Of a stretch of 31,838 nt of DNA, positions 9,493-29,201 are shown one piece after another. The stretch is from NCBI GenBank assembly GCA_022826515.1, contig JAJDUT010000062.1, positions 1 to 31,838 on the forward strand, given 5' to 3'. Source of the stretch: Candidatus Latescibacterota bacterium (GTDB taxonomy: Bacteria; Latescibacterota; UBA2968; UBA8231). The stretch's first letter is position 1; the number at the start of each line of letters is the position of its first letter. The notes beneath the pieces are model-generated. The model saw only the letters and a program-made list of their open reading frames with translations. It made no database searches and was not told the origin of the DNA. Both the position numbers and the translations under genes were made by a program.

Positions 9493-11562
9493 TTGCAGTT
9501 TCTCAATCCCGCGCTCCTTGTCGGACTGGTCGCGGCCGCCCTTCCCCTAGCCATTCACCTGCTGCATCGAGGGCGCGCCCAACCCCATCCTTTCAGCGAC
9601 TTCGCCTTTCTGCGCCAGCTACAGCAAAACCGCATGCGGCGACTGCAACTGCGCCAATGGCTGGTTCTGTTGCTGCGCACGCTCATCATCGCGCTCATCG
9701 TCTGCGCCTTTGCCCGTCCGACGTATCAGGCCGGTGGCGGATGGGGAGGCGGGGATCGCCCGGTGGCCGTTCACGCGCTCTTGGACCTGTCGTACAGCAC
9801 TCGCTACCAACGGCCCTCTGGCTCCCTTTTCGACCAACTCCAGCGCCAACTCGGCGACCTGCTGGCCGTTTTGCCGCCGCGCGATCAAGTGGCAGTGCAG
9901 CCTTTTGCCCTACGGCCCCACGCCCCTTTTGCCGGCGACCGCGATTACCTAGCCGAGCGCCTGGCCGAGCTCGCGCCGACGCAAGAGGCGACCGACTTGC
10001 GCGTGGCCTTGCACGCGGCGGCCCAACGCTTCGACCAAAAATCCGCACTCGCAGCGCACGAGCTTTTCGTCTTTACCGATTTGGCCCAATACAACTGGGA
10101 TCAACTCGACGCCTCGGTCCCGTCCTTTGCCGACGCACGCGTCTATGTCGCCAGCCCGCGCACCCAGCCCCGGCCAAATGCTTACGTCGAGCGGGTCTCG
10201 GCCCCGAGTTGGATGCTCGCGGCCGACGCCAAAGTCACCTTGCAAACCGAAATCGCGCACAGCGGCGCGGGCACAGCACTCGACCTGTTTGTCGAGGGCC
10301 AGCGCGTGCGCCGCCATAGCGTGGATCCCGGAGCGCCCGGCACGACCCAAGTAGCACTCAGCTTTTCGCCGCGCCGCCCCGGGCGGCTGAGCGGACACGT
10401 CGCCCTTTCCGACGACGCGCTCGCGCTCGACAACCGCCGCTACTTCACGCTTGACCTGCCCACCGCCATCACCGTGCTGCTGTTAAGCGAACAGCCCGAA
10501 GACGCGTACTATGTGCGTCGGGCACTCGGGGCGGCAGCCCTCTCCGATCCGGTCGTAAAAATCCGCACCGATCTCTTTGCCAACTTCGACGCCGGCACCC
10601 TCGCCGGAGTAGATGTCCTCGTGCTCTGCAACCTCGCGCGGCTAAGTGCGATGCAAAAGGCGGCCCTAGACGAGTTCGTCGCCAACGGCGGGGGCGTAGC
10701 CCTCTTTCCCGCGCCGCACAGCGACCTCGGCTACTACAACCGCGACCTCTTGCCTGGCCTGACTCCGGGCCGCTTCAAAAACCGGCTCGGCGCACCCGGC
10801 AACGCAGCCAACTATCAAGTCTTAGATTCGGACGAGCCGCACCACCCGCTTTTCAACGACCTCCTCGCCAGCGACGGCGATCAGCCGCGCTTCTACGGCT
10901 ATTTTTCCATGGTCCCCGCGCCCGACCTTTTGCCTTTGGTCCGCTTCAGCGACGGACAACTCGCCATGGCACTAGCCTGGAAGGAGCAGGGACGCGTCGC
11001 ACTGGCAGCTTTCCCCATCGACCCGCAGTGGAACGACCTGCACCAACGCGGACTGTTCGCTCCCCTCCTACACCGCTTGGTGCGCGAGTTGAGCCTGCCG
11101 CCCGATCGCCACGCCGCTTACTTGGTGGGAGAAACGGTCTATCGCCGCTTGGCCGATGTGCCAATGGAAGCGGTCGTAGAGGCCGAGACGCCGTCGGGCG
11201 AGCGCCTGCGCTTGGAGCCGGAGCCTGTCGGCGGCCAATACTTGTGGAAAATTCCCCACGTCGGCGAGGCTGGCATCTGGCGACTGCGGGCTGAGGGCGC
11301 AGAGGTCGATGCGTTCGCCGTCAACTTCGACGCCCGCGAATCCGCACTCGCGCCTGTAGTGCCCGAGTATGTACGGAGCGTTTTCGCGGACGCGGAAGTC
11401 CATTTCCTCAACCCAAGCGACGACCTGCGCCTTGCGGTCTTGGGCAACCGCCATGGCCGCGAGCTGTGGCGCGAATTCCTGCTTTTGGCCCTCGGCCTCC
11501 TCCTCGCCGAACAGTGGATCGCCCGCGCCCCCCGCGACGTTCCGGTGCGCCAAGCGGCATAA
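9493..11562 (+). CDS. BatA-type vWA membrane protein
   Basis: A 689-aa protein beginning with the BatA N-terminal module. The starting segment LQFLNPALLVGLVAAALPLA is followed by HLLHR, then a second membrane segment at about residues 55-75. A von Willebrand factor A-like domain follows with an intact MIDAS start, LLDLSYSTRY (DxSxS), running to about 210. The middle part includes VDVLVLCNLARLSAMQ and EFVANGGGVALFP, typical of the class I glutamine-amidotransferase-like fold seen in these long BatA proteins. A final membrane segment lies at about 655-675. The start is a TTG at 9493, because the conserved N-terminus begins there. No strong Shine-Dalgarno is seen. Relatives often sit with MoxR and DUF58 genes, which are absent here. 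Its 3' end is copied twice downstream. Confidence 0.85.
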   Translation: MQFLNPALLVGLVAAALPLAIHLLHRGRAQPHPFSDFAFLRQLQQNRMRRLQLRQWLVLLLRTLIIALIVCAFARPTYQAGGGWGGGDRPVAVHALLDLSYSTRYQRPSGSLFDQLQRQLGDLLAVLPPRDQVAVQPFALRPHAPFAGDRDYLAERLAELAPTQEATDLRVALHAAAQRFDQKSALAAHELFVFTDLAQYNWDQLDASVPSFADARVYVASPRTQPRPNAYVERVSAPSWMLAADAKVTLQTEIAHSGAGTALDLFVEGQRVRRHSVDPGAPGTTQVALSFSPRRPGRLSGHVALSDDALALDNRRYFTLDLPTAITVLLLSEQPEDAYYVRRALGAAALSDPVVKIRTDLFANFDAGTLAGVDVLVLCNLARLSAMQKAALDEFVANGGGVALFPAPHSDLGYYNRDLLPGLTPGRFKNRLGAPGNAANYQVLDSDEPHHPLFNDLLASDGDQPRFYGYFSMVPAPDLLPLVRFSDGQLAMALAWKEQGRVALAAFPIDPQWNDLHQRGLFAPLLHRLVRELSLPPDRHAAYLVGETVYRRLADVPMEAVVEAETPSGERLRLEPEPVGGQYLWKIPHVGEAGIWRLRAEGAEVDAFAVNFDARESALAPVVPEYVRSVFADAEVHFLNPSDDLRLAVLGNRHGRELWREFLLLALGLLLAEQWIARAPRDVPVRQAA
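11425..11562 (+). repeat. batA 3'-end repeat, copy 1 (in the intact gene)
   Basis: These last 138 bases of the vWA gene (46 codons including stop) match 12117-12254 without gaps, with 122 of 138 positions identical by hand alignment. A shorter degenerate match lies at 14506-14558. All three copies share GCGACGTTCCG, here at 11534-11544. Confidence 0.92.
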
Positions 11563-11575
11563 AGAGTTATATATT

Positions 11576-11686
11576 ATGAGTTTCGATAATCAAACTACAA
11601 CCATTCGATTCAACGAGAAGTTCTATGACTCCACGCTGAGCAAATTCGCCGTAGGCAATCTGCGAGGAAACATATGGAAAAAGTGA
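11576..11686 (+). CDS. Small ORF of 36 aa ahead of merC-like gene
   Basis: An ATG at 11576 opens 36 codons (MSFDNQTTTIRFNEKFYDST and so on) ending in TGA 11684-11686, overlapping the next gene's start by 13 nt. It has a weak AAAGAG upstream. The sequence is hydrophilic, with AT-richer codons than batA. I recognise no family. It may be a leader that couples translation into the MerC-like gene, or simply the 5' remnant of cassette DNA. Confidence 0.35.
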   Translation: MSFDNQTTTIRFNEKFYDSTLSKFAVGNLRGNIWKK

Positions 11687-12102
11687 AAAACTATTTTGAT
11701 CAAGGGCTGGTAGATACCATAGGAGCATTTCTATCTTTTTCGTGTGCGCTCCACTGCGTGGCAATGCCGCTTTTAGTAACAATTCTGCCATTACTGGGGC
11801 TTGGGTTCCTCGCAAGTGAACGCGCGGAATTAATCATTATTGGAGCCGTTGCACTCGCATTAGGTAGCGTCGTTTTGGGGATTAAGAATCACAGAAGTTG
11901 GAGAGCATTTCTCACCCTCGTAGTGGCAGTAGCGTTTATCGCCACCGCCCACATTGCTACTGAAGGAATCTTTGAAGTAGTCCTCCATGCAACAGGAGGC
12001 CTCCTACTGGCAACAGCACATCTCCTAAATCGGCATCTATGTAAGATATGTCCTACCTGTGAGCGCGAGCATCCGGGTGATTCTCACTCGCTGCGGCATT
12101 GA
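11674..12102 (+). CDS. MerC-domain integral membrane protein
   Basis: A 142-aa inner-membrane protein with four hydrophobic segments (about 15-40, 45-65, 70-90, 95-118). It carries the MerC signature FSCALHCVAMPL with Cys24 and Cys28 in the first segment. A Cys/His-rich tail follows (HLCKICPTCEREH), suited to metal binding. MerC proteins import mercuric ions in mer operons, but many stand-alone MerC-domain proteins exist whose substrate is not known. No merR, merA or merP is in the window, so mercury resistance is not established. GAGGAAA ends 5 nt before the ATG. Codon third positions are distinctly AT-richer than in the neighbouring batA gene, and the gene lies between two copies of the batA 3' end, both signs of transfer. 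Confidence 0.8.
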   Translation: MEKVKNYFDQGLVDTIGAFLSFSCALHCVAMPLLVTILPLLGLGFLASERAELIIIGAVALALGSVVLGIKNHRSWRAFLTLVVAVAFIATAHIATEGIFEVVLHATGGLLLATAHLLNRHLCKICPTCEREHPGDSHSLRH

Positions 12103-12116
12103 CAGAGTAGATACGA

Positions 12117-12254
12117 CTTTACCTCGCGGTTTTGGGCAATCGCCACGGTCGCGAGCTGTGGCGCGAATTCCTGCTTTTGGCTCTCGGCCTCCTCCTCACC
12201 GAACAGTGGATCGCCCGCGAGCCCTGCGACGTTCCGGTTCGTCAGGCGGCATAA
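12117..12254 (+). pseudogene. batA 3'-end repeat, copy 2 (gene fragment)
   Basis: This 46-codon stretch reads in frame as the C-terminus of the vWA protein up to the same TAA, but it has no start and is preceded by an in-frame TAG a few codons upstream. Against copy 1 there are 16 base differences in 14 codons. Ten are synonymous and four change a residue (R to Y, A to T, A to E, R to C). That excess of silent changes suggests it diverged as a working gene end in another genome before arriving here. The shared GCGACGTTCCG is at 12226-12236. Confidence 0.9.
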
Positions 12255-12298
12255 AGACCTATAGACGGTGGTCGTTTAGATTTGCACAGGCGAGCGGC

Positions 12299-12327
12299 TT
12301 GACGGGGATTTGCCTTAACAGTACCAT
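12299..12327 (+). promoter_or_regulatory. Candidate promoter for the uncharacterised gene pair
   Basis: TTGACG at 12299-12304 and TACCAT at 12322-12327 are separated by 17 nt. An AT-rich stretch follows and then AGGAG at 12345-12349, 12 nt before the ATG at 12362. It lies just downstream of the second batA end copy, so this cassette seems to carry its own promoter. Confidence 0.45.
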
Positions 12328-12361
12328 AAAATTTAACCCCTAGTAGGAGAGCAATCAGGAG

Positions 12362-12883
12362 ATGGTGGAACGTTCGAGAAAGATGCAAGATGATTACGGC
12401 GTCTTTACCCTCGACATGTCCGTAACCTCTCGCGTTTGGCAGCCCCAGATTGAAAACGCGAGCACGCCTGAGGAGATAATCAATATCCTCAGACAGTTCA
12501 ATCTCGATGCGATCGCGGATCGCCTCACCGACCTCCGCAAGCTTGTCGAAGTTGATCCTGAAGAATCGCCTATGGAGCTTGAATCACTGCGATCATTGGC
12601 CATTTTCCTTATGAGTGAGATACGTGAACGACAACTGCCCGAGCCAGAAATCGGTGTCACCCCAGACGGATTGGTAGAAATTGCATGGTCGCTCCCCCCC
12701 CACAACGGTATCCTGGCCATGGACTTCTTGCTCTCTGGACAAATTCAGTACACTGCCATCTCTGCACCGGCCCAATATGGAGTCGAGCAAAAGACCGCTA
12801 GCGGAACGTCGCCTAAGGACGAGATCATGAAAAATGTCCAGTCGTTCATCTCGCTTCTAGGGCGGTCATGTCTCGATGAATAA
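12362..12883 (+). CDS. Uncharacterised 173-aa protein, first of a pair
   Basis: A soluble, acidic protein with no signal peptide or membrane segment. Residues 30-75 look helical and charged (STPEEIINILRQFNLDAIAD). The middle has a conserved-looking VTPDGLVEIAWSLPPHNGIL, then a strand-rich part FLLSGQIQYTAISAPAQYG, and the C-terminus is a helix. I know similar proteins only as hypothetical proteins that accompany a partner like the next gene in accessory regions. The function is unknown. Start choice: ATG at 12362 with AGGAG 12 nt upstream. A second Met at codon 8 is possible. The stop overlaps the next gene's start by 8 nt, so the two are almost certainly translated together. Confidence 0.75.
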   Translation: MVERSRKMQDDYGVFTLDMSVTSRVWQPQIENASTPEEIINILRQFNLDAIADRLTDLRKLVEVDPEESPMELESLRSLAIFLMSEIRERQLPEPEIGVTPDGLVEIAWSLPPHNGILAMDFLLSGQIQYTAISAPAQYGVEQKTASGTSPKDEIMKNVQSFISLLGRSCLDE

Positions 12884-13277
12884 CCGGCCGCTTCCCGATA
12901 ACAACCACATCTCGCGGTACTGCAAGCCATCGCACATCGGCCAGAACGGAATGCTGTTACCTGCCGCCTTCTTGCCACGGAAGGGCGAAAAGCACCTCTC
13001 GGTCAACTGGCTTGAGTACTTCGATAAGGCCGACTTGGATGATGCCATTGAGGAAGTTCGAGAGGTGTTTCGCCGCAAGGGTTATAAAGTTAAATCGAAT
13101 GGTCGGTTTGCGGTGCTGGAGGTCGGAGCTGCCAAAGCCGTCGGGGATACTCTATCCATAAAGCATTTGCCCTCTATCAACGATGAGTCCCACGCCGGTA
13201 TTTTTGGAGATATTACGAGTGCCACAGCTACAGCACTTGCAATGCTGGCTGGTCGAACCTTATATCCCGCTATATAA
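12876..13277 (+). CDS. Uncharacterised 133-aa protein, second of a pair
   Basis: A soluble protein with the features RPLPDNNHISRYCKPSHI near the N-terminus, LSVNWLEYFDKADLDDAIEE in the middle, GRFAVLEVGAAKAV, and a His-containing segment near INDESHAGIFGDI. The Arg-Tyr-Cys, SVNWLEY and SHAGI blocks recur in a family of hypothetical proteins that I recall from accessory regions, always unnamed. Cys and two His residues could bind metal, but this is speculation. It overlaps the upstream gene by 8 nt and ends 15 nt before the end of the convergent PLD-like gene. No function is assigned. Confidence 0.75.
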   Translation: MNNRPLPDNNHISRYCKPSHIGQNGMLLPAAFLPRKGEKHLSVNWLEYFDKADLDDAIEEVREVFRRKGYKVKSNGRFAVLEVGAAKAVGDTLSIKHLPSINDESHAGIFGDITSATATALAMLAGRTLYPAI

Positions 13278-13292
13278 AAATCTCCGAAGTCG

Positions 13293-14447
13293 TCAGTCGA
13301 TTTGGTCGAGCGTGTCCTGCGGAACTTTGCCGTGTGCGTCGAACGCCGCTTGGAGCCGCTCGCCGAGCCAAGAAATCCCTTGCGGAGAAAGTTCGACGGC
13401 TGGTTGCTGCCCATATGCACGCCGAGGATTCGTGTTGCCGGTGTCGCGTGCTGCATTACGCTGGGTCGACGCAAATGAATCGCTCTTGAGTTCACACATC
13501 AACTCGTTCAGCGAGATGCCGTTGGCTATGGTCCCATCAACGAACTCGGCGCGATCCACTCGGATATACCTCGAATACTTTTCTCTCCACCAGCGAAGAT
13601 CAATGTCCTCGTCTGACGCGTTGTCTCGGTCCGGATGATGCTTCATGCCGACGGCGCGACCGAAAATTCGTATGTCGCGCTTCTCCGTGAATCGTGCCAT
13701 AAACATGATCGCACCGTCTTCGACGCTCCTAGGGCGTTTGGTCTTGGGATAGGCGAGGACCTCATGGCAACCCTCGTGTTTGATCACCTCGATAATAGGA
13801 TAAGAAACACAGACCCGCTCATGACTGTTGCCGAGAAACTTGATGAAGGCTTGGTCTCCATCCGCCACGGTAGCGGGAAGAGGAACGGATTGTGAGGCCG
13901 CAAGCCTCACCTTCGCGCCGAAATCGCCGAGCCCTTTCACGCGATTGGGCCTCCCAACAGCCGCACGGTGCTGGGTAACAGTTGCCGCCCAGCTATCGAG
14001 TAGATCTCGAGATAAGTCCTTGCCGCGCTGCCAAAGCCCGTCAAAATAGCTTTGGCAGTCCGCTATGACGGCTTCGTCTTCGGCGACAACACCGAACTCT
14101 TGGTTCCGGGTGAGCGCGGCCTCTGTCAGATTGGCCGACGTAATGATTACTCGGCTTGTCCCGAAGAGATACAACTTAGCATGGAGGTTCTGGACACCTC
14201 GGACGCTGGCACCATCGTCGAGTAGCATTCGCAGGGCTTCGACATCGCTGACACCGTTAGCGAAATCGTCCAGATTGAATCGGGTAATCACTTGAACGTC
14301 ACCGGGACGATGCGACAGGAGATATTCAAGTGCACCTTTCTTAATGAACGGACAGATGATGCGTAGCTCGCTGGGATCCGCGTGGATAGCCGCCGTCAGT
14401 TCCCGGTCCCATTCTGCACTGACCAGCCGTATGGGTTCTTGACTCAT
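13293..14447 (-). CDS. PLD-family nuclease-like protein with C-terminal unknown domain
   Basis: A 384-aa cytoplasmic protein. Residues 1-170 form a phospholipase D/nuclease domain with a single HKD-type motif LHAKLYLFGTSRVIITSANL (His89, Lys91, then Ser104-Asn106) and a following TRNQEFGVV. Single-motif members act as dimers, and several are DNA nucleases, including restriction enzymes such as BfiI and NgoFVII (family knowledge). Residues 195-340 are a second domain with GAIMFMARFTEKRDIRIFGR, an HHP motif, WWREKYSRYIRV and ISLNELM. It resembles PUA-like/EVE-type reader folds only in general pattern. The start ATG has GAGGG upstream. It converges on the uncharacterised pair and lies between batA end copies 2 and 3. 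Confidence 0.78.
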   Translation of the reverse strand: MSQEPIRLVSAEWDRELTAAIHADPSELRIICPFIKKGALEYLLSHRPGDVQVITRFNLDDFANGVSDVEALRMLLDDGASVRGVQNLHAKLYLFGTSRVIITSANLTEAALTRNQEFGVVAEDEAVIADCQSYFDGLWQRGKDLSRDLLDSWAATVTQHRAAVGRPNRVKGLGDFGAKVRLAASQSVPLPATVADGDQAFIKFLGNSHERVCVSYPIIEVIKHEGCHEVLAYPKTKRPRSVEDGAIMFMARFTEKRDIRIFGRAVGMKHHPDRDNASDEDIDLRWWREKYSRYIRVDRAEFVDGTIANGISLNELMCELKSDSFASTQRNAARDTGNTNPRRAYGQQPAVELSPQGISWLGERLQAAFDAHGKVPQDTLDQID

Positions 14448-14617
14448 TACACTACCCTCGCAAATTCACCGCTGACGGCCTGTTACCAGATATGTGCATA
14501 GACACCTCGGGCTCATCCTCACCGAATAGTGGATTGCCTGCGCCCCCGCGACGTTCCGAAAATCTATTATTGTTGAATCAAAGAGCTATTTGCTCGCTTC
14601 CCAAAACCCGCCTTACC
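14448..14617. other. Gap containing batA end copy 3
   Basis: This 170-bp stretch separates the PLD-like gene from the DUF971 gene. The degenerate third copy of the batA end sits in its middle. The rest is AT-richer and holds no recognisable gene. I could not identify a promoter for the PLD-like gene with confidence. Confidence 0.5.
14506..14558 (+). pseudogene. batA 3'-end repeat, copy 3 (degenerate)
   Basis: About 53 bases align to 11491-11544 of the vWA gene, with an in-frame TAG replacing CAG and a 1-bp deletion in the run of C. It shares ACC with copy 2 where copy 1 has GCC, and shares the GCC CC stretch with copy 1. It ends exactly after the common GCGACGTTCCG (14548-14558), beyond which similarity stops. 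Confidence 0.82.
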
Positions 14618-14935
14618 TCATCCCCCCGCGTCTAGCGCACGAAAAAACTCAAACGTATAAATGCCGTGGTCGTGCCCGTCGGCCCATTCAATGCGAATGC
14701 CGTAGCGCCCAACGTAGCTAACCCCCCGCACCTCGGCCGTGGCTGACACCGCCTCGGGCTGCAAGAGCGTCAACCCGCCCTCGCTCGCGTCGCGCAATTC
14801 CCGACAGTAGGCGCAAGGACAATCTCGCCGCAACCCCTCCAAGTCGTAGCGACCCTCGCGGCCATCGCTCCACCCGATGACCAACTCACCGGCCCGGCCA
14901 TCCACGGCGATGTCTCGCGGTCTCGCCTTGTTCAA
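14618..14935 (-). CDS. DUF971 (GBBH-like N-terminal) protein
   Basis: A 105-aa protein of the DUF971 family, which shares the N-terminal fold of gamma-butyrobetaine hydroxylase and often accompanies iron-sulfur or Mrp/ApbC proteins. The family features are the start with RDIAVD, LVIGWSDGREGRYDLEGLRR, the Cys pair in DCPCAYCREL, and the C-terminal YVGRYGIRIEWADGHDHGIY. Those cysteines could bind zinc or a cluster, but the biochemical role is not known. The start codon is TTG, overlapping the rimO stop as TTGA, so translational coupling is likely. It is the last gene of the long minus-strand operon. Confidence 0.85.
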   Translation of the reverse strand: MNKARPRDIAVDGRAGELVIGWSDGREGRYDLEGLRRDCPCAYCRELRDASEGGLTLLQPEAVSATAEVRGVSYVGRYGIRIEWADGHDHGIYTFEFFRALDAGG

Positions 14936-16251
14936 CGCGGCCCTCCCACCATCTTAGCACTCAGCTCATAGGGTGCGGCTGCGGTAATTTCCACTTCGAC
15001 GAAAGAACCCACCCGAGGCGTACCCTCGGTGATTACTACTTGGCCGTCGATTTCCGGGGCATCGCGCTCCATCCGCCCATAGCACATCTCCCCCACGCGC
15101 GCATCGACCAAGACCTGCTGCCGCGTGCCGACAAGCTCGTCGTTTTTCTCCGTGCCCACGCGCTCCTGCAGTTGCGTCAGGCGGCTGTAGCGCTCCTGCT
15201 TGACCTCCGCGCTGACCGGATCGCCAAGCCCATACGCCGAAGTCCCATCCTCCGGCGAGTAGAGAAAGCCGGTCGCGTAGTCGAAGCGCGTCTCGGCCAC
15301 GAATTCCAGCAAGGCGGCAAAATCGTCCTCAGTTTCCCCGGGAAAACCGACGATGAACGTCGAGCGCAGCCCAGCCCCCGGCAGCCTCTCTCGCAGTCGC
15401 GCCAACAAATCGAGCGTCTTTTGGCGCGTCGTCGCCCGCTTCATGCGCTTGAGTACCGGGTCGGAAATGTGTTGCAGCGGCATGTCGATGTACCGGCACA
15501 TCTTGTCGCACGTAGCGTAGAAGTCGATCAGTTCCTGGGTCCAGAACGCCGGATAGGTGTACATCAAGCGCATCCACTCAATGCCCTCCACCTCGGCGAG
15601 CGCTTGTAAAAGGCGCACGAGCTGCGGCCGGCCGTAGAGGTCGGCCCCGTAGCGCACCGAATCCTGTGAAACCAAGACCAACTCCCGCACCCCCTCCGCA
15701 GCCAGCCGTTCGGCCTCAGCCACGAGCTGTTCGACCGGCTCGCTCACGTGCCGCCCGCGGATGGCGGGAATGGCGCAAAAGGCGCATTGGTGATCGCAAC
15801 CGTCCGATATACGCAGATACGCCCAGTGCTCCGGCGTCAGCGAAGTCCGCGGCAAGCTGGCCAAGTACTGGGGCCGCTGAACGTCTAGCACCTCGTCAAC
15901 GTGGCGGACGATGTCGGCCTCGTCGGCAATCGTCAGCAGCTTGTCGGCCTCCACCAACTCCTGCGCTAGCTCCTCGTAGTAGCGCGTCGATAGACACCCC
16001 GTGACGATCACCCCCTCGCACTGACCCTCTTGCTTGAGCCGATGCGCATCCATAATCGCGGCGAGGGATTCTTCTTTGGCCGGCTCGATAAAGCCGCAGG
16101 TATTGACCACCACCACGTCCGCTTCTTCCGGCGCATCCGTCATCTGATAGGCATGGCCCTGCAAAAGCCCCTGCATCCGCTCGGAATCGACCGTGTTTTT
16201 CGGACACCCCAAGCTGACTAGGTGGACTTTGTGGGGTTGGTTTTCGCTCAT
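14932..16251 (-). CDS. rimO: Ribosomal protein S12 methylthiotransferase RimO
   Basis: A 439-aa radical SAM methylthiotransferase that adds a methylthio group to an aspartate of ribosomal protein S12. The N-terminal MTTase domain has HLVSLGCPKNTVDSE (Cys16), VVNTCGFIEPA (Cys52) and VTGCLS (Cys86), binding the auxiliary cluster. The radical SAM domain has CDHQCAFCAIPAIRGRH (Cys152, 156, 159). A TRAM domain closes the protein. CPKNxVDSE and the length separate it from MiaB. I chose the ATG at 16251 because it lies 1 nt after the aroB stop and has AGG upstream. The longer frame to 16305 would add 18 unlike residues overlapping aroB. All cluster cysteines are present. Confidence 0.96.
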   Translation of the reverse strand: MSENQPHKVHLVSLGCPKNTVDSERMQGLLQGHAYQMTDAPEEADVVVVNTCGFIEPAKEESLAAIMDAHRLKQEGQCEGVIVTGCLSTRYYEELAQELVEADKLLTIADEADIVRHVDEVLDVQRPQYLASLPRTSLTPEHWAYLRISDGCDHQCAFCAIPAIRGRHVSEPVEQLVAEAERLAAEGVRELVLVSQDSVRYGADLYGRPQLVRLLQALAEVEGIEWMRLMYTYPAFWTQELIDFYATCDKMCRYIDMPLQHISDPVLKRMKRATTRQKTLDLLARLRERLPGAGLRSTFIVGFPGETEDDFAALLEFVAETRFDYATGFLYSPEDGTSAYGLGDPVSAEVKQERYSRLTQLQERVGTEKNDELVGTRQQVLVDARVGEMCYGRMERDAPEIDGQVVITEGTPRVGSFVEVEITAAAPYELSAKMVGGPR

Positions 16252-16252
16252 A

Positions 16253-17356
16253 TCATGCCTCGCAAAACCGCTGCGCGTATGCAATGGCTGCGCGCACCGT
16301 GTCATCGGTTATGCCCTCCACAACCTCCACCTCCCCAATCCGCCGACCCAACACAAACCGCAACTGCCCATCCACTCGCTTCTTGTCGGCCTTGGCACAG
16401 ACCAAAATCCGCTCCGCCTCCACCTCGGCCAACCCCCCGGGCACCCCCAACCGCTCTAGCAACGCGTCCTGCCGCTGTCTTTCCGCTTCGGGCCAAAACC
16501 CTTCGCGGCAGGCGATTTCGCCCGCGGCGATCAAACCCAAAATTATCGCCTCCCCGTGCCGGTAGCGGCCGTAGTCCGTAGCGGCCTCAATCGCGTGTCC
16601 AATGGTGTGCCCGTAATTGAGAATGGCCCGCAAGCCCTGCTCCTTCTCGTCGGCGGCCACCACTTCGGCCTTGATCTCGACATTGCGGCCAATGAGCCAG
16701 TCCAAGGTCTCCGGCACCAGCGCCATATCTACGACTTCCTCCAAGTGCTCCTCCAAAAAGGCGAAGAGCGCAGCGTCGCGGATCAACCCGTGTTTGACCA
16801 CCTCGGCCATGCCCGCGACCCGCTCCCGCCTCGGCAGCGAGTGCAGCGCATTAGTGTCGACCAAGACCAAGCGCGGCTGGTGAAAGGTGCCGATCAGATT
16901 TTTGCCCAGCGCGTGGTTGACCCCCGTCTTGCCGCCGATGCTCGAATCCACCTGCGCGACGATGGTAGTAGGCACCTGCACATAGGGCACGCCGCGCAAA
17001 TAGGTGGAGGCCACAAAGCCCGCCATGTCGCCGACTACGCCCCCGCCGAGGGCCACGACCCAATCGCCGCGGTCGAACCCGGCTTCGATCATCTGCCCGA
17101 AAATGCCCTCAGCCCCGTGCAGGTTCTTAGCCTCCTCGCCCCCGGCATAGACAATCTCCAACACCTCAAATCCAGCAGCGCGCAAGCTGGCAGCCGCCGG
17201 TTGCAGGTAGTGCGCGGCCACGACCTCATCGGACACTAGTGCGACCTGCCGGCCCAAAGCCAAGTCGCGGCAGCGCGGCCCTAGTTCCCCTAAGATATTG
17301 TGGCCGACGAAAATGGGGTATGCAGCCCCGGGGATGTCTAAGTCAATTCTTTGCAT
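16253..17356 (-). CDS. aroB: 3-dehydroquinate synthase
   Basis: A 367-aa NAD- and metal-dependent enzyme that converts DAHP to 3-dehydroquinate, the second step of the shikimate pathway. The NAD-binding domain has GGGVVGDMAGFVASTYLRG and VPTTIVAQVDSSIGGKTGVN. Metal ligands are in the helical domain, GMAEVVKHGLI (Glu), LNYGHTIGHAIE (His) and RHGEAIILGL (His). The length is typical. The start overlaps the end of aroK by 14 nt and the stop is 1 nt from rimO, so it sits in a tightly packed operon. Confidence 0.97.
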   Translation of the reverse strand: MQRIDLDIPGAAYPIFVGHNILGELGPRCRDLALGRQVALVSDEVVAAHYLQPAAASLRAAGFEVLEIVYAGGEEAKNLHGAEGIFGQMIEAGFDRGDWVVALGGGVVGDMAGFVASTYLRGVPYVQVPTTIVAQVDSSIGGKTGVNHALGKNLIGTFHQPRLVLVDTNALHSLPRRERVAGMAEVVKHGLIRDAALFAFLEEHLEEVVDMALVPETLDWLIGRNVEIKAEVVAADEKEQGLRAILNYGHTIGHAIEAATDYGRYRHGEAIILGLIAAGEIACREGFWPEAERQRQDALLERLGVPGGLAEVEAERILVCAKADKKRVDGQLRFVLGRRIGEVEVVEGITDDTVRAAIAYAQRFCEA

Positions 17357-27023: not shown

Positions 27024-29201
27024 TCACCGCGCCAACTTCCCTATTACTTGGGCGATCAGCCGCAAGCCCAAATCGTCCTTGAGCGTCAAGATCGACTCCG
27101 GGTGAAACTGCACGGCCGCCACTGGCAACTCGCGATGCTCTACGGCCATAATGACCCCGTCATCGGTCTGCGCTAACACCCGCAAGCACTCGGGCAGCTT
27201 CTCCGGCACGGCGTAAAGCGAGTGATAGCGTCCAGCGACGAATTCCGTGGGAAATCCGTCAAAAATCCCTTCGGGCGTGCAGCGGATCGTCGATTCCTTG
27301 CCGTGCATCGGGTAGGAAAGCACCCCTAACTCGCCTCCGAGAGCTTCGACAATACCTTGCAATCCGAGACACACGCCAAAAACCGGCAGCGTGCGACGCA
27401 CGCACTCGTTGACCAACTCCGGCACCCCGAATTCCTCGGGCGTACCTGGCCCCGGCGAGATGAAGACCAGATCGGGATCAAACTCGGCGAAGACGCGCTG
27501 GGGGTCGCGCAGGCCCCGCGCGCCGCTGCCGTCGCGCGATCTAGCAGCACGCACCGTCACCACCTCCGCTCCCGTCTGCCGCACGTAATCGCCGAGCGTA
27601 TGCACGAAAGAGTCGCGGTTATCGACGAAGAGCACCCGCTTGCCCTGCCCCGAAGTCGCGATTTGAGTGACCTTATCCTTGGCATCGTCAGCACCGATCA
27701 CCGCGTTGATAAAGGTCTCGGCCTTGGCTCGCGTCTCGCGCTCCTCAGCGTCGGGGTCCGAGTCGCAGAGCAGAGTCGCCCCGGCCCGCACTTTGGCGAT
27801 TCCGTCCTCCAGGTGTACCGTGCGGATGGTGATCCCAGTGTTGATCTCGCTGCTAAAGAGCAACATCCCAACGCAGCCGCCGTACCAGCGCCGCGCCGAG
27901 TTTTCCAGTTCCTCGATCTTCTGCATGGCCGCTGGTTTGGGTGCACCAGTAAGCGTCACTGCCCACATATGCGAAAGCAGGGCGTCGAATCCATCGCAGT
28001 CATCCTTCAGCTCACCTACTACTTGATCCACCGTGTGAAAGACCTTTGAGTACCTTTCAATCATTCGCCGCCCGACCACCCGCACCGAGCCTTCCTTGCA
28101 AATCCGCGCTTTATCGTTGCGATCGACGTCCGTACACATGTTCAGTTCGGCCTCGTCCTTTTTTGAGTTGAGCAAGTCGCGGATCTGTTCGGCGTCCTCC
28201 ATCACGGTTTTGCCGCGGCCAATGGTCCCGGCAATCGGACTCGTCTCGACGAATGGCCCATTGACCCGCACGAACATCTCGGGCGAAGCGCCGATCAGAT
28301 ACTCGTCGCCGAGGTTGATGAAAAACTCGTAGGGGCTGGGACTCGTGCGGCGGATATTCTCAAAGAGGGTGTGCGGACTGCCCGCATAACCAGCGCTGAG
28401 CACTTGGCTCGGAGTCACCTCAAAGAAGTCGCCGCGCTCGGTACCGGCGATGACCTCGCGCACCTTGTCGGCGTATTCCCCAGGGACGTGATCGCACGCA
28501 ATTTCGGACACTGCGCCGCGCACATAGGGCACGGCGTCCGTGCCGCGCTCCATGCCCTCGGTTGACAATCCATCGGCGGCAAATTCATAGCGGTAGCGCC
28601 GCGCCTGCTCCTTGCGGTGATCGACGACGACCAGTTCGTCTGGCAAAAAGAGGTGCAGATCGGGCCGGTCCTCGCGGCGCGGATGGCGCAGTTGGAGTGG
28701 CTCAAACTGGAGTACCAAGTCGTAGCCCAGCGCCCCATAAAATCCCAAGTGGTTTTCACCTTCGGCTCGCATCTGCGCCACCAGTGCGCGCAGGACACTG
28801 AAGATCGTCGGCTGCTTGGAGCGTTCCTCTTCGGGGAAGTACTCGGGCATGGGAGCCACCGCACCTTTGAGCTGACCGTCGGTTAGCTCCAACTCCGTCA
28901 CATGCTCGTTCTTGGCGAGGCTGCCGCGAAAAATCTCCAGCAACATCTCGCCGCGCCCGTTGAGCGCCCGAAAGGCAAAGGCGCGCTGACGCGCCACCAA
29001 CTCCAGCGGCGGATCAACGAAACCAATGTCCCAGCGGCTATAGCGCCCTGGATACTCGTAGCCGCTGGCGAAGACGGCACCCCGGTGGGTATTGAGCCGT
29101 TCGAGTAGTGTCTCTAGTGGCCTTTCTATGGGCAATTCCTCGGTCTGGCGATTGACTTCGACGCCGCCAGCCGTGCGAAAAATTTCCGTGTGAATAGTCA
29201 T
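27024..29201 (-). CDS. trpE: Fused anthranilate synthase TrpE(G)
   Basis: A 725-aa single-chain anthranilate synthase making anthranilate from chorismate and glutamine, the first committed step to tryptophan. The TrpE half (about 1-510) has SGYEYPGRYSRWDIGFVDPP near the inhibitor-binding region, SPSPYEFFINLGD, ETSPIAGTIGRGK, TDVDRNDKARIC and TLTGAPKPAAMQKIE. The glutaminase half (about 520-725) has FISPGPGTP, FGVCLGLQGIVEAL (Cys) and AVQFHPESIL. The fusion order, length and wording of motifs match the TrpE(G) type known from Rhizobium and Azospirillum. The ATG at 29201 has GGAGAA upstream, and a longer frame would run through the attenuator hairpin. It is preceded by a leader peptide gene and terminator. 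Confidence 0.96.
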   Translation of the reverse strand: MTIHTEIFRTAGGVEVNRQTEELPIERPLETLLERLNTHRGAVFASGYEYPGRYSRWDIGFVDPPLELVARQRAFAFRALNGRGEMLLEIFRGSLAKNEHVTELELTDGQLKGAVAPMPEYFPEEERSKQPTIFSVLRALVAQMRAEGENHLGFYGALGYDLVLQFEPLQLRHPRREDRPDLHLFLPDELVVVDHRKEQARRYRYEFAADGLSTEGMERGTDAVPYVRGAVSEIACDHVPGEYADKVREVIAGTERGDFFEVTPSQVLSAGYAGSPHTLFENIRRTSPSPYEFFINLGDEYLIGASPEMFVRVNGPFVETSPIAGTIGRGKTVMEDAEQIRDLLNSKKDEAELNMCTDVDRNDKARICKEGSVRVVGRRMIERYSKVFHTVDQVVGELKDDCDGFDALLSHMWAVTLTGAPKPAAMQKIEELENSARRWYGGCVGMLLFSSEINTGITIRTVHLEDGIAKVRAGATLLCDSDPDAEERETRAKAETFINAVIGADDAKDKVTQIATSGQGKRVLFVDNRDSFVHTLGDYVRQTGAEVVTVRAARSRDGSGARGLRDPQRVFAEFDPDLVFISPGPGTPEEFGVPELVNECVRRTLPVFGVCLGLQGIVEALGGELGVLSYPMHGKESTIRCTPEGIFDGFPTEFVAGRYHSLYAVPEKLPECLRVLAQTDDGVIMAVEHRELPVAAVQFHPESILTLKDDLGLRLIAQVIGKLAR

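Follow-up and report, generated by a model that had tools for sequence, protein, structure and literature searches.

Gene-end scars in an integrase-free cassette slot between batA and a DUF971-like gene of Latescibacterota: probable traces of stacked alleles

How can the end of one gene come to lie three times in a row, with unrelated genes in between and no integrase in sight? This is the question raised by a 31,838-nucleotide (nt) stretch of a Candidatus Latescibacterota genome (contig JAJDUT010000062.1), which as a whole we call the window. In it, a batA-like gene and a DUF971-like gene are separated by a MerC-domain gene and, further on, by a second set of three genes (orfA, orfB, and a DrmC-like gene), and a copy of the 3′ end of batA follows each of these two occupants. 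Our answer, which we consider probable, is that the batA-DUF971 gap is a cassette slot that works without an integrase, and that the spare gene ends, or scars, are left when a second allele of the slot is stacked onto the first using homology on one side and an illegitimate joint on the other.

An earlier note on this DNA, made from the sequence alone, had placed copies of the batA end at 12117-12254 (122 of 138 bases identical) and at 14506-14558 (53 nt), and both are reproduced to the base. A recount of the last 138 nt of batA (11425-11562) against 12117-12254 confirms the hand figures. As a direct repeat, copies 1 and 2 run over 142 nt, gap-free, at 89% identity; the third copy, which appears as a 42-nt repeat family at 14506-14547, extends to 14505-14558 with 87% identity to copy 1. 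This is the only direct-repeat family in the window (at least 45 nt, using a 10-nt seed). A chance origin of copy 2 is excluded, because the best ungapped 138-nt match to the batA end within the copy-free region 12300-14400 reaches only 53 of 138. And an assembly artefact, which would have undone the earlier note's proposal, is unlikely because the copies differ from one another by 11-17%, and because G001, a separate assembly, has the third copy as well.

We compared the window with 11 Latescibacterota-type genomes of its genus (G001-G011). Eight of them form the window's subclade, and G006, G007, and G010 are outlying members. The genome nearest to the window is G001, with 46% of sampled 31-letter words in common, and G005 (OX638377.1) and G008 (OY282352.1) are one-contig chromosomes. 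In all three outlying genomes, the batA, DUF971-like, and rimO-like genes are adjacent and the slot is empty, so that batA runs into DUF971 just as the earlier note had suggested one should look for. G006 and G007 have a hairpin immediately 3′ of batA, which is absent in G010. Outside the genus, the DUF971-like gene directly follows batA at 4 of 10 loci (L018, L020, L022, and L024); for the remaining six, either the 1.5-kb flank shows no such gene or the contig stops first.

The subclade presents a different picture. The slot of G002 contains MerC alone, that of G005 a 588-amino-acid (aa) Ig-like protein, and that of G001 the genes orfA, orfB, and DrmC-like followed by a 73-nt piece of batA. 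In G004, MerC is followed by a UvrD-type helicase and then by the contig end. In G003, batA and MerC (the fourth case, with the window, G002, and G004, of MerC lying 3′ of batA) are on one contig, and the contig with DUF971 carries an HsdS-like gene, a batA tail copy, and two unassigned open reading frames (ORFs). The two flanks are found on separate contigs in G009, and 1.34 Mb apart on the same chromosome in G008 (C1:2203669 and C1:3544494). G011 is uninformative at batA: the gene runs off the contig, and DUF971 was not found. A gap that holds differing cargo within the subclade and is empty in the outlying members is therefore a real insertion slot, and the stepwise filling that the earlier note proposed is borne out by the empty and differently filled relatives. 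The slot, its alternative occupants, its empty alleles, and the scars with their make-up can all be seen in the sequences.

The batA slot also doubles as a point of rearrangement (the G008 split, C166/C305 in G003, and C15/C31 in G009). The same folD/serS-like genes, named by eye, are found 3′ of batA or of batA-MerC in G003 and G009, and G009 retains a 25-nt remnant of the MerC leader.

Where do the displaced gene ends come from? In G001, the 73-nt third copy leads into a hairpin of the same type as those behind batA in G006 and G007, and DUF971 comes next. For this reason, copy 3 is best read as the old batA end of the slot, displaced. By a consensus scan, the G001 hairpin has a T-run on the DUF971 strand only, and the G006 hairpin on both strands; in the window, the hairpin after copy 3 is gone. 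As for copy 2, the MerC alleles of the window and G002 can be aligned up to base 12125, from which G002 continues to the DUF971 stop and the window to position -133 of batA. Thus, the window resembles a MerC allele that has been trimmed at the right-hand edge and continued by a batA tail from another allele. The bases CTC at 12123-12125 are common to both sides of this joint, in a comparison that uses relatives in place of the true donor alleles. Copy 2 ends like the batA of G001, with no difference over the final 29 nt up to the stop; the word GGTTCGTCAGG does not occur in any of the nine further intact batA ends that were aligned.

We can picture how such an arrangement would come about. Occupants of the slot would be swapped by recombination, with the flanking genes serving as homology, and a scar would arise when a second allele is added rather than swapped. 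One side of the incoming fragment would pair with the homologous flank, and the other would be attached illegitimately where a few bases agree. Two occupants would then stand one after the other, separated by a leftover gene end, and the old gene end would be pushed downstream. In the window, the DUF971-side edge of a MerC allele would have been joined to batA -133 of an orfA/orfB/DrmC-like allele, which would itself have been stacked earlier on an empty allele, leaving copy 3. That homology acted on one side only, that the joint was illegitimate, in which order things happened, and that the DNA came by uptake are our inferences.

As a second example, consider the slot between a PhyH gene and an epimerase gene. 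In G005, the order is PhyH (PF05721), a VapBC-like pair (PIN/FitA-like, the FitA-like match being below the Pfam cut-off), the scar, a 338-aa protein without Pfam match, a GmrSD-like gene, and the intact epimerase (PF01370). The scar has two sides: a piece of the epimerase start (68 coding nt, 100 nt in total, 87% identity) abuts a 149-nt piece of the PhyH end (97%), with about 2 nt in common at the joint as read by eye. Joining two alleles of one slot in series would have this result. Among the eight subclade genomes, this slot is empty in five (G002, G003, G008, G009, and G011; 44-48 nt), has one occupant and no scar in two (G001 and G004), and is stacked in G005. The G001/G004 occupant matches the antitoxin-side half of the G005 pair. 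G006, G007, and G010, whose flank showed no epimerase start, stay outside the count.

A third slot follows an altronate-dehydratase-type gene. It is empty in G002 and G005 (22 nt), spans 101 nt in G001, and is filled with 455 nt in G003 and 923 nt in G004 with no second tail copy, only the length of the filling having been measured. It is scarred in G009 and G011, and G008 has no visible right flank. Our scan for gene ends with bracketed cargo covered 400 kb of G005, 200 kb of G001, and 200 kb of G009; it turned up such pieces at genes other than batA, most clearly at the PhyH slot of G005. A glycosidase-like locus in G001 was left out of the slot evidence; there, the 3′ end is common to paralogues, and an empty allele that keeps the right flank is missing.

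Could the repeats instead be produced by an element that integrates into the end of a gene? The earlier note had favored integration at the 3′ end with a replacement end brought along. In this explanation, site-specific elements without an integrase of their own would insert in the batA 3′ end, driven in trans. Two one-occupant alleles with a tail copy are compatible with it, G001 at batA (with its displaced end and hairpin) and G011 at the altronate-dehydratase slot, and so are two copies that start within 1-2 nt of each other. Against these two stand six one-occupant alleles from which a tail copy is absent: G002 and G005 at batA, G001 and G004 at the PhyH slot, and, by filling length only, G003 and G004 at the altronate-dehydratase slot. 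The starts vary (-133 and -73 in batA, and those in other genes) and share no core; for the six scar starts, we find no common word longer than shuffles give. The G005 scar holds the start of the downstream gene as well as the end of the upstream one, and therefore it is not expected from gene-end integration or from target duplication. The batA tail was not found in viral contigs, searched with one pattern, and a Pfam scan of 26 window ORFs (6 + 10 + 10), slot occupants included, found no recombinase or transposase domain, in agreement with the earlier note's statement that the two intervals have no integrase. Six slot ORFs of relatives were scanned for mobility domains, also with none found.

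A known arrangement of this sort is that of cis-mobilisable elements (CIMEs) in tandem at gene 3′ ends, which need a fixed attachment core and a recombinase. The cassettes described here are like them in being tandem units parted by gene-end repeats, and unlike them in having no constant core among the six starts and no recombinase domain in the ORFs scanned. All in all, we regard integration of site-specific elements as quite unlikely. Of the two routes of spread that the earlier note had offered, homologous recombination has proved the better half, and gene-end-integrating elements are poorly supported. Even less probable, to the point that we would hardly expect it, is that a transposon-like insertion produced the copies as a long duplication of its target site. 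It would account for direct repeats flanking cargo, but such copies would be identical at birth and expected in one-occupant alleles, and one-occupant alleles without duplication have already been seen; it cannot join the start of a downstream gene to the end of an upstream one, and the window ORFs scanned have no transposase domain.

The main rival to stacking is of another kind. The slot may have been duplicated in place, in tandem with pieces of both flanks, by unequal exchange at short repeats, with an occupant afterwards swapped in the ordinary way through the flanks; the joint would then form within one genome. Duplication in place yields an identical two-sided scar, and agrees with the short words in common at the joints. 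The nature of the changes in the scars is what argues against it. Copy 2 differs from copy 1 in 14 codons, 10 of them silently, and the PhyH piece shows 4 silent changes in 5; these are the highest silent shares, and they are what we expect between functional genes of two lineages. This supports the earlier note, which took copy 2 for a gene end that had evolved in another genome. Pooled over six scars, the silent changes number 21 in 39 altered codons, where a fraction of 0.26 would be expected (p 1.5e-4), in a count that still includes the 67-nt piece of the G001 glycosidase-like locus and an ORF of G008 at 191400 of the scanned stretch that comes without allele evidence. Two scars, those of the G008 ORF and of the altronate dehydratase, do look like decaying in-place copies. 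Among the slots examined, no two identical occupants occur in series, which again speaks against duplication in place, and we judge this explanation unlikely.

Several observations weigh against stacking, and they should be taken together. First, three of the six scars lack a majority of silent changes: there are 2 in 5 for the epimerase piece, 2 in 6 for the altronate-dehydratase piece, which also contains a stop, and 1 in 6 for the G008 ORF. Second, the donor is not clearly recognizable. The batA gene of the window is a mosaic, which in itself counts in favor of stacking; its informative sites divide 44:10 to the left of 10320/10321 and 20:38 beyond it, a split that none of 5000 permutations reached. 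But identity between the window and G001 ranges from 91% to 98% along the locus, and the batA 3′ half is more divergent between G002 and G003 too (p 0.006), so the donor tract is not clean and the donor-recipient reading is weakened; taken in full, copy 2 matches the G001 tail at only 91.7%. Third, the batA positions at which copy 2 and the G003 copy begin lie no more than 1-2 nt apart. By a hand estimate, the chance of this is about 1 in 10 given three starts in 138 nt. A coincidence is possible, and the near-identical starts also hint at a preferred site. Fourth, a tail copy accompanies a single visible occupant in two alleles, that of G001 at batA and that of G011 at the third slot. We read these as alleles that would have been stacked on an empty or nearly empty one, and they would equally fit gene-end integration.

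The remaining objections concern how often such copies occur and what could make them. In a scan of 1.2 Mb from four genomes of the genus, with 815 ORFs of at least 150 aa, we counted nearby low-copy partial copies of ORF ends or middles, and compared them with 0.4 Mb and 260 ORFs of G031, a class-level control genome. In the genus, 15 ORFs have a copy of the 3′ end only, 8 of the 5′ end only, and 2 of the middle only; in G031, the numbers are 3, 4, and 0. Ends are copied more than middles, and several matches are paralogues by eye. The rate of one-sided gene-end copies is similar in both, 23 of 815 versus 7 of 260: on these counts, the genus does not surpass the control. With G031 about level, the process may be no more than a common background event across many genomes. 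Ku-type end joining was found in none of the 11 genus genomes (and in 1 of 14 controls). ComEC-type genes are present in 9 of the 11 genus genomes but also in 10 of the 14 controls, and being about as common there, they allow no inference of competence.

The features of the window are collected in Table 1. The genes between the copies are those that the earlier note had described, a MerC-like gene between copies 1 and 2, and two unassigned ORFs with a PLD-domain protein between copies 2 and 3. In G001, residues 19-173 of orfA are found directly 3′ of batA, and orfB is 98% identical to its G001 counterpart. The rimO-like gene adjoins the DUF971-like gene in every relative where both are visible.

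Table 1. Coordinates of the slot, its flanks, and the batA-end copies in the window.
Feature	Position	Strand	Basis
batA-like gene, upstream flank	9493..11562	+	BatA N-terminus PF07584, VWA_2 PF13519 (Pfam)
Best single breakpoint in batA, from G001-like to G002/G003/G009-like bases	10320..10321	+	112 informative sites
Copy 1: functional batA 3′ end + 9 nt	11430..11571	+	direct repeat
MerC-domain gene, occupant 1	11674..12102	+	PF03203, E 2.4e-20
Joint: MerC allele right edge to batA position -133	12117..12125	+	comparison with G002; CTC on both sides
Copy 2: displaced batA end (scar)	12122..12263	+	direct repeat, alignment, codon count
orfA, 173 aa, occupant 2	12362..12883	+	no Pfam match above cut-off
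orfB, 133 aa, occupant 2	12876..13277	+	no Pfam match above cut-off
DrmC-like PLD-domain protein, 384 aa, occupant 2	13293..14447	-	PF13091; PADLOC DrmC
Copy 3: older displaced batA end (scar)	14505..14558	+	direct repeat, comparison with G001
DUF971-like gene (GBBH-like_N), downstream flank	14618..14935	-	PF06155
rimO-like radical SAM gene, conserved neighbour	14932..16305	-	PF04055, PF00919, PF18693

The PLD protein matches the PADLOC DrmC model PDLC02599 over its full length (E 4.6e-132). Using PADLOC to look for DISARM partners beside it, we find no Drm match for orfA or orfB, and the neighbor on the other side is GBBH-like_N. We thus have a complete DrmC-like protein without adjoining Drm genes, alongside two unassigned ORFs, and judging by this context it may be a stand-alone defence gene.

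We came across other arrangements that deserve a mention. Matches of 24-28 nt to batA elsewhere in six genomes were set aside as chance coding similarity; all of them are in one conserved open frame, which bears a TPR-like repeat (named by eye). In G003 (L037:4026-5471), a macro-domain and DarT pair (PF01661 and PF14487) lies between a LysR-like and a PhyH-like gene that are only 10 nt apart in G009, making a further slot, occupied in the former genome and vacant in the latter. In G009 (C15:184992-188760), 81 nt of a gene start reappear (86%) at a distance of about 3.6 kb, and an Eco57I-type methylase is among the genes that separate the two. In G001 (C60:26288-26432 and 27917-28061), a 145-nt repeat (94%) flanks a 505-aa gene and has the internal repeated word GAATCAAAACCCGATCAAACG. 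Finally, in the control G031 (C1, about 1228847-1233205), a gene end is repeated 3.8 kb on, 92% identical over 235 nt, with a further matching piece beyond; it is possibly a scar of the same kind outside the genus.

Is any of this new? In the excerpts of the literature that we draw on here, several relatives of the arrangement can be recognized. The minimal mobile elements of Neisseria (Snyder et al. 2007, as cited in PMC2784325) are unrelated gene sets between the same conserved genes, for which the excerpt proposes exchange by homologous recombination in the flanks, mobility genes being unnecessary (PMC2784325). The batA slot is like them in its differing cargo between the same two conserved genes and in that no mobility genes are seen; empty alleles, another trait of these elements, are present at batA (three genomes) and at the PhyH slot (five genomes). 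It is unlike them in having two occupants in series with gene-end scars, and in that natural transformation is only a possible route in this genus.

Closer to stacking, Kirchberger et al. (PMC5361080) describe arrays of type VI secretion system immunity genes in Vibrio cholerae that come from successive insertions and contain displaced gene ends. The portion consulted proposes homology-facilitated illegitimate recombination, and cites the same idea for Rhs loci. As described there, a module is added beside a homologous upstream anchor, and the old end and cargo are displaced downstream, stepwise and without an integrase, much as we propose. The differences, to the extent of that portion, are that the interrupted gene is a polymorphic effector, whereas here the flanks are whole and the scar is a spare copy, and that both cargo and phylum differ from those of the window. 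Oliveira et al. (PMC5635113), in the part available, tie hotspots free of mobile elements to recombination in flanking core genes. These hotspots share with ours variable content between core genes, the lack of an integrase, and, as we propose for the batA slot, flank recombination; the part available speaks of clean double recombination, whereas the scars here show addition too. Excerpts of other papers ascribe much small-scale diversity to illegitimate recombination, with the assisted form in three competent species (PMC2884548), and report tandem duplications formed during pneumococcal transformation (PMC3784515). One paper turned up by a term search has both 'minimal mobile elements' and 'illegitimate recombination' (PMC9778887). 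A literature search on genomic islands and horizontal transfer in Latescibacterota or sponges gave no title on this subject among the matches listed.

We regard the window as holding a real and well-preserved case of stacked cassettes in a slot that has no integrase, and other loci of the genus offer parallels. It resembles the Neisseria elements, combined with the kind of stacking proposed for the Vibrio arrays. Stacking belongs to a known kind, and the informative features are the two-sided scar and the housekeeping setting: the precedent is in effector-immunity and Rhs-type loci, and here the scars lie at housekeeping genes of an uncultured lineage. Could stacking be a general integrase-free route to arrays of defence-type cassettes between housekeeping genes, with two-sided scars as a time-ordered, genome-wide record of it, and batA -133 as a preferred joining site? 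We put this forward tentatively, as a possibility that we think rather doubtful at present. It matters because many insertion hotspots carry no mobile element (PMC5635113), and how genes are gained there is debated. Scars with pieces of both flanks would be direct traces of addition between alleles, can be searched for in any genome collection, and may reveal the order in which the cassettes arrived.

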